Part shown: positions 21,303-44,272 of the stretch, piece after piece | Layout of the letters: the number at the start of each line of letters is the position of its first letter | Position numbering within the stretch: position 1 is the first letter of the stretch | Source: Mollicutes bacterium | Lineage (GTDB): Bacteria > Bacillota_I > Bacilli_A > Izemoplasmatales > Izemoplasmataceae | NCBI GenBank assembly: GCA_003551005.1 | Contig: PULR01000002.1 | Span: 1-53,808, forward strand | Reading direction: 5' to 3' | DNA: 53,808 nt | Position numbers and translations under genes: made by a program | Notes under the pieces: generated by a model | Database searches by the model: none | What the model saw: the letters and a program-made list of their open reading frames with translations, nothing else | Told to the model about the DNA's origin: nothing

Positions 21303-21328
21303 AGAAAACGGCGGAATCCTCCGCCGTT
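21303..21328 (-). terminator. Terminator of the tRNA-Pro/Arg cluster
   Basis: AACGGCGGA (21307-21315) and TCCGCCGTT (21320-21328) form a perfect nine-base stem with a four-base loop; on the minus strand it ends in TTTTCTTATTTT. It lies just past tRNA-Pro(CGG). Confidence 0.85.
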
Positions 21329-21338
21329 GTCCACAAAC

Positions 21339-21415
21339 TGGTCGGGAAGACAGGATTTGAACCTGCGACCTCTTAGCCCCGAACCAAGCGCTCTACCAAG
21401 CTGAGCTACTTCCCG
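21339..21415 (-). tRNA. tRNA-Pro (CGG)
   Basis: CGGGAAG pairs with CTTCCCG, followed by A73 and an encoded CCA. The anticodon loop TTCGGGG gives CGG. The anticodon stem contains one G-U pair (CTTGG with CTAAG). An 8-base-scale hairpin (CCGTGC-AAAC-GCACGG, 21419-21434) lies just upstream of its 5' end. Confidence 0.93.
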
Positions 21416-21442
21416 TGACCGTGCAAACGCACGGGGTGATAT

Positions 21443-21474
21443 AAAAAAGAGCATATGCCGTCTAATGGCTGCTC
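21443..21474 (-). terminator. Possible terminator between the two tRNA-Pro genes
   Basis: On the minus strand GAGCA and TGCTC flank a small GCC/GGC inner pair and are followed by TTTTTT. It would end transcription from the upstream promoter after tRNA-Pro(TGG), leaving tRNA-Pro(CGG) dependent on read-through; no second promoter was seen. Confidence 0.5.
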
Positions 21475-21502
21475 CGATGCCCGGTCGCAAACTGCATGCT
21501 CA

Positions 21503-21579
21503 TGGTCGGGAAGACAGGATTTGAACCTGCGACCTCTTGGCCCCAAACCAAGCGCTCTACCAAGCTAAGCTACTTCCCG
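21503..21579 (-). tRNA. tRNA-Pro (TGG)
   Basis: Same acceptor and T-arm sequences as tRNA-Pro(CGG); the anticodon loop TTTGGGG gives TGG. CCA is encoded. It starts four bases after tRNA-Arg, so both are cut from one transcript. Confidence 0.95.
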
Positions 21580-21582
21580 TGG

Positions 21583-21659
21583 TGGCGCGCCCAAGAGGAT
21601 TCGAACCCCTAACCTTTTGATCCGTAGTCAAACGCTCTATCCAATTGAGCTATGGGCGC
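21583..21659 (-). tRNA. tRNA-Arg (ACG)
   Basis: GCGCCCA pairs with TGGGCGC, followed by G73 and an encoded CCA. The anticodon loop CTACGGA gives ACG, which in bacteria is deaminated to ICG by TadA. First gene of the tRNA cluster. Confidence 0.95.
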
Positions 21660-41893: not shown

Positions 41894-42469
41894 CTAAATT
41901 CGTTCACCCGGCAGCCCCCGGGCTTTCTTGTTTCCGCTTCGGATAGTAGCGGGGCGTTTCCACTGCATCCCGAACTGTTCGAGGCCGCTGGCAAGAACCC
42001 GATATAAGGGCGCATAAAGCCAAAGGATGGTCACTGTGTTCGAGACGGCCATGATAATCTCGAAGGGGAGGTCGGCCAGCAGATAGGGCCAGAACCGGTC
42101 GATGCCCGTCTGAATCATCACGAAAGGTATGAAGATCCATCCATAAATGAATCCATAGAGGCAACCGAAGATGGCCAGTTTCACTTCGTCGGTGGTCCGC
42201 TTCAGCACCAGCCGATGCAGCACGGGCACAAGCGACCAGGCAAGCAGCATCGGGGTCATATAGAAAGGATTGAACGCCCCCATGTAGAGGCTGTCGACGA
42301 TGACATAGACGAAAATCAGAACCAGGGTCTCACGCAGGGTGAACACACTGGAGAAAAGCACGATCAGCAGCATCGTGAACTGCACATTCGCCAGCACGAC
42401 CAGAAGCTGTTCCTGGACGAACAGGATGGTCACCGACATGGCCAGGAAAATCATCCGTCTCAGCGGCAT
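41894..42469 (-). CDS. ECF transporter S component-like membrane protein, candidate cobalamin-specific subunit
   Basis: 191-residue protein with about six hydrophobic helices, the size and layout of ECF substrate-binding (S) components. The segment FWPYLLADLPFEIIMAVSNT and the basic C-terminal tail fit this group, as does VLIFVYVIVDSLYMGAFNP. I place it in the ECF S superfamily by topology and context, not by a decisive motif. It is the last gene of the cobalamin-riboswitch operon, so cobalamin or a corrinoid is the likely substrate; EcfA/EcfT would be shared and encoded elsewhere. AGAGGTGAG precedes the ATG at 42469; the frame itself extends to a TTG at 42484 that overlaps the previous stop. 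Confidence 0.7.
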   Translation of the reverse strand: MPLRRMIFLAMSVTILFVQEQLLVVLANVQFTMLLIVLFSSVFTLRETLVLIFVYVIVDSLYMGAFNPFYMTPMLLAWSLVPVLHRLVLKRTTDEVKLAIFGCLYGFIYGWIFIPFVMIQTGIDRFWPYLLADLPFEIIMAVSNTVTILWLYAPLYRVLASGLEQFGMQWKRPATIRSGNKKARGLPGERI

Positions 42470-42480
42470 CGACTCACCTC

Positions 42481-42864
42481 TCAATCAACTTCGACAACTT
42501 TCAGGGTGTATTCGGCGCCATCCTCGAGATAGACGCCCTCCATCCCGTAGTCCGCAGGCTCCCCGTCCACCTTGATCTTCAGGAAATTGTTCTGGAAATC
42601 GGTCTCAATCGTTTCGATGGACAACAGCACTTTGGAAAAGTCCTCACGATAATCAATCTCGTAGTTCTCAACCAGCAGGCGATAGAGGCTCGTCCGCCCA
42701 TAAAAGCGGTGGTGCTCATCGATAACCGTCTCCTCATCGCCATCGATGACCTCAAGGCGTACTTCGCCGTAGACATCTCCGCCAAGCGGCGTGAAATGAA
42801 TCATCGAGAATGAGGCGGCCAGGATGAGCAGTACGCTCAAAAGTATCTTGGCGCGCGTTTTCAA
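42481..42864 (-). CDS. Membrane-anchored DUF4430-like protein
   Basis: 127 residues. One N-terminal hydrophobic helix (KILLSVLLILAASFSMIHF) acts as anchor or signal, without a lipobox Cys. The remaining about 100 residues resemble DUF4430, the domain related to the C-terminal part of transcobalamin/intrinsic factor: FYGRTSLYRLLVENYEIDY, FLKIKVDGEPADYGMEGVYL and DGAEYTLKVVEVD. The start codon is TTG at 42864, inside the TTGA overlap with the upstream lipoprotein gene, so translation is probably coupled. It likely hands a corrinoid from the lipoprotein to the membrane S component; this is inference from context. Confidence 0.75.
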   Translation of the reverse strand: MKTRAKILLSVLLILAASFSMIHFTPLGGDVYGEVRLEVIDGDEETVIDEHHRFYGRTSLYRLLVENYEIDYREDFSKVLLSIETIETDFQNNFLKIKVDGEPADYGMEGVYLEDGAEYTLKVVEVD

Positions 42865-43934
42865 GGACTTCCCGTCCGATAAGGATGCGGCGTTTCTTCC
42901 TCTATCGAGCGCAAGGCCGTCACAAGCGCAAGATAAGCCTGGGGCGAAGCGAACTGCGAGTCCGTTTCGTCGTCATCGGCAGCAAAGTAGAACAAACCTT
43001 CTTCGGACTGCAGATCAAGCAGCGCCTCAAGCGGGGACTCGCCGTTTTCGGGGCCGAAGACGTCGCGGCCGGCGGCGACATATGCCATGGTCATCCAGGC
43101 ATAGGTCGCGGCGTTGTTGCCGTAGGGATGTTCATGAAGATTCGCCTCGAGCGTATCCAGCAGCTGCTCCTCGAAGTCGGTGTCGTGGTCGATCAGCTGC
43201 AGCGCTAGATAAGCATGGGCCGCCGAATCCAGATCGTCTTCGAGAGGCATGCGGGCCTCGAGGTCTTCAAGGTAGCTAGCGATAAGCTGTTCATCGCCTT
43301 CGGCAACCGCAAGTGCCGCTGCTTGCAGCGAGGCGGTATATGGATGGTCGAAACTATAATCCGTCTCGAGCTCATCGATGCGTTCAGAAACGTCTTCGCC
43401 CCATATGTCGGCAAGGAGGATTTCGCGCGCCAGCCCGTATACACCTTCCCCGGCTAGTGCATCCATATCGAAGTCAACGTCGGTGTGGTCATGCTCCATG
43501 GCCATCAAGGCATAAAAATCTCCGGCATCAACAAACGTCTCCTTGCCCGCGTTGCGAAGTTCCTCGATGGCTGCGGCCAGCCGCTCGGCATCTTCGTCGT
43601 ACCAATCTAGACTGAAGGTATAATAGTCGCCGGCTTCAAGCTCGAGTTCCTCGATGCCAGCCTGCACATCTTCACCGTCAGGACCCGAGATATGGATGAA
43701 AGAGCCGGGAAGCGTTGCCGATAAATCATCCACGCCTTGCAGCATCACCCCGTGCTCCGTCGTATCCACCTCTAGATCATGGTGGCGATCCAGCAGGTCA
43801 TAAAGCGTGTCTTCTGTCTCGATAGCATGTGTGTGTGTCTCGCCCTCGATATCCACCGTCACTTCCGCTGTGTCGCCAGCACAGCCTGCGAGCGGTAGCA
43901 AGAACAATGCCAATGCAATGAACCTGAGTGTCAT
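42861..43934 (-). CDS. Transcobalamin-like lipoprotein: DUF4430 plus alpha-helical barrel domain
   Basis: 357 residues. The signal peptide ends in a perfect lipobox, LAGC (Cys18). Residues about 22-118 resemble DUF4430 (EDTLYDLLDRHHDLEVDTTE, SFIHISGPDGEDVQAGIEEL). Residues about 120-350 are helical repeats of the prenyltransferase/squalene-cyclase-like type (AATYAWMTMAYVAAGRDVFG, GESPLEALLDLQSEEGLFYF, ASPQAYLALVTALRS). This is the two-domain composition of vertebrate transcobalamin and intrinsic factor, in the reverse order. The protein is very acidic. AGGAGG before 43934 fixes the start. It is the first gene behind a cobalamin riboswitch, so a cell-surface B12-binding role is strongly suggested. 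Confidence 0.85.
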   Translation of the reverse strand: MTLRFIALALFLLPLAGCAGDTAEVTVDIEGETHTHAIETEDTLYDLLDRHHDLEVDTTEHGVMLQGVDDLSATLPGSFIHISGPDGEDVQAGIEELELEAGDYYTFSLDWYDEDAERLAAAIEELRNAGKETFVDAGDFYALMAMEHDHTDVDFDMDALAGEGVYGLAREILLADIWGEDVSERIDELETDYSFDHPYTASLQAAALAVAEGDEQLIASYLEDLEARMPLEDDLDSAAHAYLALQLIDHDTDFEEQLLDTLEANLHEHPYGNNAATYAWMTMAYVAAGRDVFGPENGESPLEALLDLQSEEGLFYFAADDDETDSQFASPQAYLALVTALRSIEEETPHPYRTGSP

Positions 43935-43961
43935 GTAAAGCCTCCTGTAAAAGGGTATCCA

Positions 43962-43992
43962 AATAAAAAGCCATCCCACTCCTGGATGGCTT
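43962..43992 (-). terminator. Expression-platform terminator of the cobalamin riboswitch
   Basis: On the minus strand AAGCCATCC and GGATGGCTT form a nine-base stem with a seven-base loop followed by TTTATTT. It lies between the aptamer and the first gene, so ligand binding probably favours termination. Confidence 0.85.
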
Positions 43993-44075
43993 GACGGAAA
44001 GTCGAGCGACACTACTCCCGTAGCATCGACGAAACATTCACGCCAGCGCTCAAACCCAGGAGCGTGGTTCCCGAT

Positions 44076-44227
44076 GGCCTGCAGGTAGGTCTACCGGCTC
44101 GACATCCTCCTACTGTGCGCGCCTTCCCGCTCTCGCAGTGGCAAAGTGCGCAGGTCGTCCGTCTCACGGTTGCTGGGACAGCCCGGGATTCGCACCCGGT
44201 TCCCTGTTATATCGGACCTACAGGCCT
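44076..44227 (-). promoter_or_regulatory. Cobalamin riboswitch aptamer
   Basis: Core elements of the cobalamin riboswitch are visible in order on the minus strand: GTGCGAATCCCGGGCTGTCC, CAGCAACCG (44167-44175), GCCACTG (44136-44142), GGGAAGG (44122-44128) and GAGCCGGTAGACCTACC. The outer ends AGGCCTGTAGGT and ACCTACCTGCAGGCC pair to form P1. It controls the DUF4430 lipoprotein operon and is expected to shut it off when cobalamin is abundant. Confidence 0.95.
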
Positions 44228-44243
44228 ATGCGTTTCTAAGTTC

Positions 44244-44272
44244 AGTCTATATCACCCGAGGGGGAAAGTCAA
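44244..44272 (-). promoter_or_regulatory. Promoter of the cobalamin-riboswitch operon
   Basis: On the minus strand TTGACT (44267-44272), 17-base spacer, TAGACT (44244-44249), just upstream of the aptamer. Confidence 0.55.

Follow-up and report, generated by a model that had tools for sequence, protein, structure and literature searches.

We identified a three-gene operon (44272-41894, minus strand) in a 53,808-nt stretch of DNA (the window) from a Mollicutes bacterium of the Izemoplasmataceae (assembly GCA_003551005.1, contig PULR01000002.1), a relative of Candidatus Izemoplasma, that is likely to be its host's B12-repressed corrinoid importer. We propose that a transcobalamin-like lipoprotein (gene 1) would capture the corrinoid at the cell surface, a membrane-anchored DUF4430 protein (gene 2) would mediate its handover, and the S-component of an energy-coupling factor (ECF) transporter (gene 3) would admit it to the cell together with the ECF module. 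The three genes adjoin one another behind an RF00174 leader, and rpsB lies downstream of gene 3 in the same direction. The features of the locus are as follows.

44244..44272, minus strand: promoter-like TTGACT-17-TAGACT just upstream of the aptamer (a consensus match only)
44067..44236, minus strand: cobalamin riboswitch aptamer, class I (RF00174, Rfam), full length
44054..44064, minus strand: antiterminator strand CGCTCCTGGGT, directly 3' of the aptamer, pairing with the terminator 5' arm and loop
43968..43992, minus strand: intrinsic terminator AAGCCATCC-AGGAGTG-GGATGGCTT, then TTTATTT (9 bp plus T tail)
42861..43934, minus strand: gene 1, lipoprotein of 357 amino acids with an LAGC lipobox, a DUF4430 domain (about 24-111) and an alpha/alpha barrel (about 113-348)
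42481..42864, minus strand: gene 2, DUF4430 protein of 127 amino acids with an N-terminal transmembrane helix and a predicted extracellular DUF4430 domain; its TTG start overlaps the stop of gene 1
41894..42484, minus strand: gene 3, six-helix ECF S-component distantly related to CbrT, 196 amino acids from TTG 42484 (ATG 42469 is the likelier start)

The operon leader is a cobalamin riboswitch

The leader matched the full RF00174 model (positions 1-189 of 189) with a score of 90.7 bits (cut-off, 31.5; E value 3.1e-21), and it is the sole copy of this element in the 1.35 Mb genome. An intrinsic terminator follows at 43992-43968, in agreement with a first-pass annotation of the window that had placed a cobalamin riboswitch with a terminator before the three genes. 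Directly downstream of the aptamer, the strand CGCTCCTGGGT can pair over 11 bases with ATCCAGGAGTG, a segment within the terminator 5' arm and loop; only 1 of 200 shuffled sequences attained a match of this length. Because this strand pairs into the terminator arm and loop, the antiterminator and the terminator are mutually exclusive structures, and structure prediction for the leader segment in isolation favors the antiterminator. The leaders of the family have the same elements, with a terminator in 20/20 and an equivalent antiterminator (at least 8 pairs) in 19 of the 20. As read from its sequence, the leader is built like a transcriptional off-switch. At low adenosylcobalamin levels, the antiterminator would form and the operon would be transcribed; at high levels, the aptamer would bind its ligand, the terminator would form and transcription would end.

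The first-pass annotation also read the three genes as overlapping, which stands for one junction and probably not for the other. Between genes 1 and 2, the TTGA overlap is probably real, given a TTG start that is in register with homologues. For gene 3, on the other hand, ATG 42469, which is preceded by GAGAGGTGA, is a likelier start than the overlapping TTG 42484.

Gene 1 encodes a lipoprotein with reversed transcobalamin-like domains

The AlphaFold model of gene 1 has two domains and scored well for both local confidence (predicted local distance difference test, pLDDT, 89) and overall topology (predicted template modelling score, pTM, 0.84). Residues 24-111 matched in Foldseek the beta domain of human transcobalamin in its apo and cyanocobalamin-bound pair of structures (5no0 and 5np4; root-mean-square deviation 1.8; E values 6-7e-4). 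Residues 113-348 form an alpha/alpha barrel that aligned with intrinsic factor (2pmv_A, Z score 17.9), haptocorrin (17.2) and transcobalamin (16.7). The order of the two domains, DUF4430 and then the barrel, is the reverse of that in animal transcobalamin and intrinsic factor, where the barrel comes first. The lipobox, the modelled domains and the fold matches all bear out the earlier description of gene 1 as a lipoprotein with reversed transcobalamin domains.

At the sequence level the DUF4430 domain is recognizable in the family, where 16 of the 20 gene 1 homologues matched it (E values up to 1; best 4e-14). The copies in the window (genes 1 and 2) gave no match and 13.4 bits against the PF14478 cut-off of 23.8 bits, and a Pfam search for PF14478 across the host's own genome found nothing. 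Thus, the window copies are too diverged for PF14478, and family alignments are needed to detect them. NCBIfam returned no useful match for any of the three operon proteins.

Two additional observations concern this protein and its DUF4430 domain. The lipoprotein (42861-43934) is extremely acidic, with 23.5% aspartate plus glutamate and 3% lysine plus arginine, which suggests a salty or soda-lake habitat. Furthermore, the PDB entry 3u7z (RUMGNA_00854), deposited as a 'putative metal binding protein', is a DUF4430 domain by both sequence and fold and may be a corrinoid binder.

Genes 2 and 3 encode a DUF4430 membrane protein and a CbrT-related S-component

The description of gene 2 as a second, membrane-anchored DUF4430 protein was supported by its N-terminal helix and by its homologues, 10/19 of which matched the DUF4430 profile (E values up to 1; best 5e-7). 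Gene 3 was modelled by AlphaFold (pLDDT 88) as a six-helix S fold. ECF S-components (FolT, RibU, BioY, PanT and ThiT) came out on top of the fold search and were the sole matches with Z scores above 6 (FolT, 14.3; RibU, 12.7; BioY, 11.7); the next match, not an S-component, scored 5.8. The small-xxx-small motif in helix 1 of S-components is the contact with EcfT, and all 19 members of the gene 3 family carry it at positions 15 (A/S) and 19 (T/A/S). Structure prediction, proposed as a check in the first-pass annotation, returned the claimed folds for both gene 1 and gene 3.

The relationship of gene 3 to the vitamin B12 S-component CbrT emerged through intermediate sequences. The window protein did not match PF12822 (ECF_trnsprt), nor did most of its homologues (2/19 matched; best E value 0.0028), and a distant homologue passed the cut-off (33.1 against 30.7). 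When the PDB was searched by sequence with the window-family profile alone, no S-component was retrieved and CbrT was not reached. The family did match intermediates in other Bacilli, and profiles that contained them, alone or together with the family, matched CbrT (6fnp_A) with E values of 2.1e-20 and 2.7e-23 as their only significant PDB match. By these profile comparisons, gene 3 is homologous to CbrT via intermediates, and the ECF S-like membrane protein of the earlier reading is supported by both its modelled fold and this link. No chain of CbrT appeared among the VIA-align matches listed for gene 3; this does not count against the kinship.

The operon is conserved and occurs in telling variants

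A gene 1 homologue was present in 32/37 genomes of the family, and a class-level search matched gene 3 in 114/395 genomes. Among the first 19 relative loci, all had RF00174 upstream and 18 had the order gene 1-gene 2-gene 3; in the remaining one (L008) the contig ends after gene 1. We also compiled 80 named loci. The titles of their records read Candidatus Izimaplasma/Izemoplasma, Mollicutes, Acholeplasmataceae and, in a few cases, Clostridia; some of the loci come from assemblies already represented in the first 19, so that the two sets are not independent. The DUF4430 gene adjoined the S gene in every one of the 80, and the barrel lipoprotein was present in 62. RF00174 lay upstream in 71 of the 75 loci that have upstream sequence (71/80 overall); among the nine loci without it, five lie on contigs that stop at the first gene or shortly before it and one (L152) has a near-threshold AdoCbl-II riboswitch. 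The recurrence of the operon in the first relatives and in the named loci argues that the arrangement is not due to chance. It also bears out the linkage anticipated in the first-pass annotation, which had allowed that most homologues might instead be linked to riboswitches for other ligands; this was not so.

Four variants were informative about the division of labor in the operon. First, genes 2 and 3 form one open frame in eight genomes from two genera, with a DUF4430 domain, an extra hydrophobic helix and an S domain, as at the following locus.

L206 2894-4051, plus strand: DUF4430-S fusion (also in L208-L214)

The copy in L209 is cut by the contig end. The DUF4430-barrel gene lies just upstream of the fusion in seven of these genomes, the eighth having no upstream sequence at the locus, and sister genomes of the fusion carriers keep genes 2 and 3 separate. 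The extra helix is what the topology needs to join a domain on the outside to an S-component that starts on the inside. An assembly error was considered and ruled out, because the fusion occurs in eight genomes of two genera and has an extra hydrophobic helix between its domains. Second, eight distant loci have the order RF00174-DUF4430-S-PduO; the last gene was confirmed as an adenosyltransferase in one of them (PF01923) and has a YTKxGDxGKT-type start in most others. Third, one branch of the same taxonomic order has a minimal form, in which the riboswitch is followed by a DUF4430 lipoprotein and the S gene, with no barrel. Fourth, L155 combines a riboswitch with a barrel-only lipoprotein, a DUF4430 gene and an S gene. 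Taken together, these variants indicate that DUF4430 and S are the core of the system and that the barrel is an add-on for capture.

The host appears to depend on imported corrinoids

The genome of the host (97% complete) encodes two adenosylcobalamin-dependent mutases, D-ornithine aminomutase (OraE) and glutamate mutase (GlmS), as well as a PduO-type adenosyltransferase (99.4 bits, below the cut-off of 108.5). It has one ecfA1-ecfA2-ecfT-truA cluster (contig C50), away from the S gene, which is the arrangement of group II ECF transporters. CobS was not detected in the genome. Among the B12 importers for which we searched, which did not include BtuM and BtuF, no other recognised one was found. 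The sole FecCD match was considered as a BtuC and rejected, being a zinc-type ABC permease beside its ATPase. Based on the mutases and PduO, the lack of a detectable CobS and the zinc-type nature of the FecCD match, the host appears to need corrinoids, and we saw neither a sign that it finishes them itself nor, among those sought, another recognised importer. Divergent from the PduO-type gene, we also noted a gene for a 318-amino acid protein with a B12-binding domain and partial similarity to CarH and corrinoid proteins (L024; contig C32, about 21314-21652). A gene with a GGDEF-type motif follows closely downstream, and the protein is a possible corrinoid-sensing cyclic di-GMP regulator.

A model for corrinoid capture and import, and its alternatives

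In the pathway that we propose, the lipoprotein, on the outside of the membrane, would hold the corrinoid between its DUF4430 domain and its barrel. The membrane-anchored DUF4430 protein would sit on the S-component and receive or cap the corrinoid at its outer mouth, and the CbrT-like S-component would dock with a shared EcfA1-EcfA2-EcfT motor encoded elsewhere to deliver the corrinoid inside. A PduO-type enzyme would then adenosylate it for ornithine aminomutase and glutamate mutase. The parts, folds, linkage, conservation, switch anatomy and gene 2-gene 3 fusions come from sequence or prediction; corrinoid binding, the handover and its direction, and use of the shared ECF module are what we infer. 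More tentatively, and with somewhat more doubt than confidence, we suggest that the operon represents a branch of ECF transporters with extracellular capture, in which the transcobalamin-like lipoprotein loads a DUF4430 subunit that is a permanent part of, and is sometimes covalently fused to, a CbrT-like S-component.

Some of our results weigh against the import pathway as a whole. The barrel fold is common to terpene cyclases (Z scores to 19.8), glycosidases and complement thioester domains, some of which outscore transcobalamin. Its profile search of the PDB gave no significant match to transcobalamin or intrinsic factor (E values 0.12-0.56), the transcobalamin match stayed short of significance with a broader barrel profile (50 sequences), and gene 1 scored 10.3 bits against the transcobalamin/intrinsic factor family PF01122, under the cut-off of 25. 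Because the sequence match of the barrel to the animal proteins is not significant, gene 1 may be said to work like them and cannot be classed among them. Direct comparison of the window gene 3 with CbrT was also weak (hhalign probability 24.5%; in a second comparison, 12 bits). Finally, 18/80 loci have no barrel lipoprotein, which thus cannot be essential to the core.

The last point leads to the best supported of the alternatives, in which genes 2 and 3 are the importer, with DUF4430 as a lid or allosteric subunit, and the barrel lipoprotein is an optional store or scavenger at the surface, with no direct handover. The constant pairing of DUF4430 with S when the barrel is in just 62 loci, the fusions that link genes 2 and 3 and never gene 1, and the minimal branch that retains the riboswitch, the DUF4430 lipoprotein and S are all consistent with it. 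Yet the barrel gene, where present, is always the first gene of the same riboswitch-controlled operon, also before the fusion gene, and the barrel-only lipoprotein of L155 suggests a pairing with the DUF4430 domain of gene 2. On balance we regard this alternative as credible, if less likely than not. The system could also import cobinamide or a cobamide other than B12, as CbrT carries both cobalamin and cobinamide (PMC5997447) and the riboswitch reports the cellular cofactor and not the form imported. This is unlikely, however, given that CobS, which finishes cobinamide salvage, was not detected; a complete cobamide therefore seems more useful to the host. Least probable is a different ligand, with the lipoprotein binding a peptide, glycan or lipid, the S-component importing another vitamin or a metal and the riboswitch acting only in regulation: the alpha/alpha barrel is indeed widespread and 3u7z is annotated as 'putative metal binding', but the riboswitch class is constant over more than 70 loci, pduO adjoins the system in some of them, and CbrT is the only PDB match by profile.

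Relation to known systems

The relay is less new than the first-pass annotation stated, since Burroughs et al. (2007; PMC1796856) had already predicted B12 scavenging by toroid-DUF4430 proteins. That paper describes bacterial SLBB (DUF4430) domains fused to a toroid, on either side of it and frequently accompanied by another SLBB paralogue and CbiO/CbiQ genes, and it proposes a bacterial origin of animal transcobalamin. Those systems share with ours the same two domains, a second extracellular SLBB protein in the operon, ECF-type genes nearby and hosts that do not synthesize B12. Their neighbors are CbiO and CbiQ (the ECF ATPase and T-component), whereas the window has a dedicated CbrT-like S gene, with the ECF motor encoded at another site. 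The window system is further set apart by consistent riboswitch control and by DUF4430-S fusions; the passages of the 2007 paper that were consulted refer to neither a riboswitch nor an S-component.

ECF-CbrT of Lactobacillus delbrueckii is a proven ECF transporter for vitamin B12 (Santos et al., 2018; PMC5997447; PDB 6fnp). It resembles the window system in an S-component homologous through intermediates and in a shared ECF module, and the S gene of the distant relatives is followed by pduO, as in the nrdJ-cbrS-cbrT-pduO cluster. It differs in that the divergence of the window S protein precludes a direct match, and the parts of the report consulted describe no extracellular binding protein for CbrT. 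Animal transcobalamin, haptocorrin and intrinsic factor also combine an alpha/alpha barrel with a beta-grasp DUF4430 domain, each with a fold match in the window; unlike them, the window lipoprotein is bacterial and lipid-anchored, has the reversed domain order and a barrel without significant sequence similarity, and its ligand is putative. BtuFCD is comparable in role, with extracellular capture followed by ATP-driven B12 import, but its proteins are unrelated to those of the window system, and it was not found in the genome, the sole FecCD match being the zinc-type permease. Surface lipoproteins of the BtuG type in Bacteroides reportedly capture B12 as well, with a different fold and in the service of an outer-membrane TonB system.

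Our literature search, to which most subscription journals were closed, retrieved no paper evidently describing a joint DUF4430/transcobalamin and ECF system. The organisation of riboswitch, CbrT-like S-component and fusions was likewise not found in the literature searched; the parts themselves had been partly predicted before. More generally, the observation behind the first-pass annotation was confirmed, and its interpretation was supported in all of its testable parts.

As a general rule, ECF transporters need no external binding protein, the membrane S-component alone binding the vitamin. A capture step such as the one proposed would break this rule and present a working bacterial equivalent of animal transcobalamin. 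If the proposed import operates, it would show how B12-dependent bacteria without a detectable BtuFCD scavenge a scarce vitamin, give the 2007 prediction the form of a defined set of three genes open to reconstruction in E. coli, and make a bacterial relative available for studying the origin of the animal B12 carriers. The full gene set and the natural fusions make the relay directly testable.

Additional observations in related genomes

The survey of relatives brought up other features of the loci. In six genomes (G232, G238, G262, G406, G168 and G390), the S-component homologues contain several in-frame TGA codons, as would be expected if TGA encodes tryptophan there. A lysine riboswitch (RF00168) closely follows the B12 operon in Acholeplasmataceae-type loci (L123, L124, L126, L127, L136, L140 and L141). 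At L055 (G031:C7, 19903-20101), a cobalamin riboswitch of 121 bits lies upstream of two membrane proteins, YitT-like by eye, that are not obvious B12 genes. In the same genome and in G015 (L057 and L059, respectively), a second RF00174 lies upstream of genes that, by eye, look to be of the BtuFCD type and of a cobyric-acid-synthase-like gene, so that some relatives seem to have two routes of corrinoid import.

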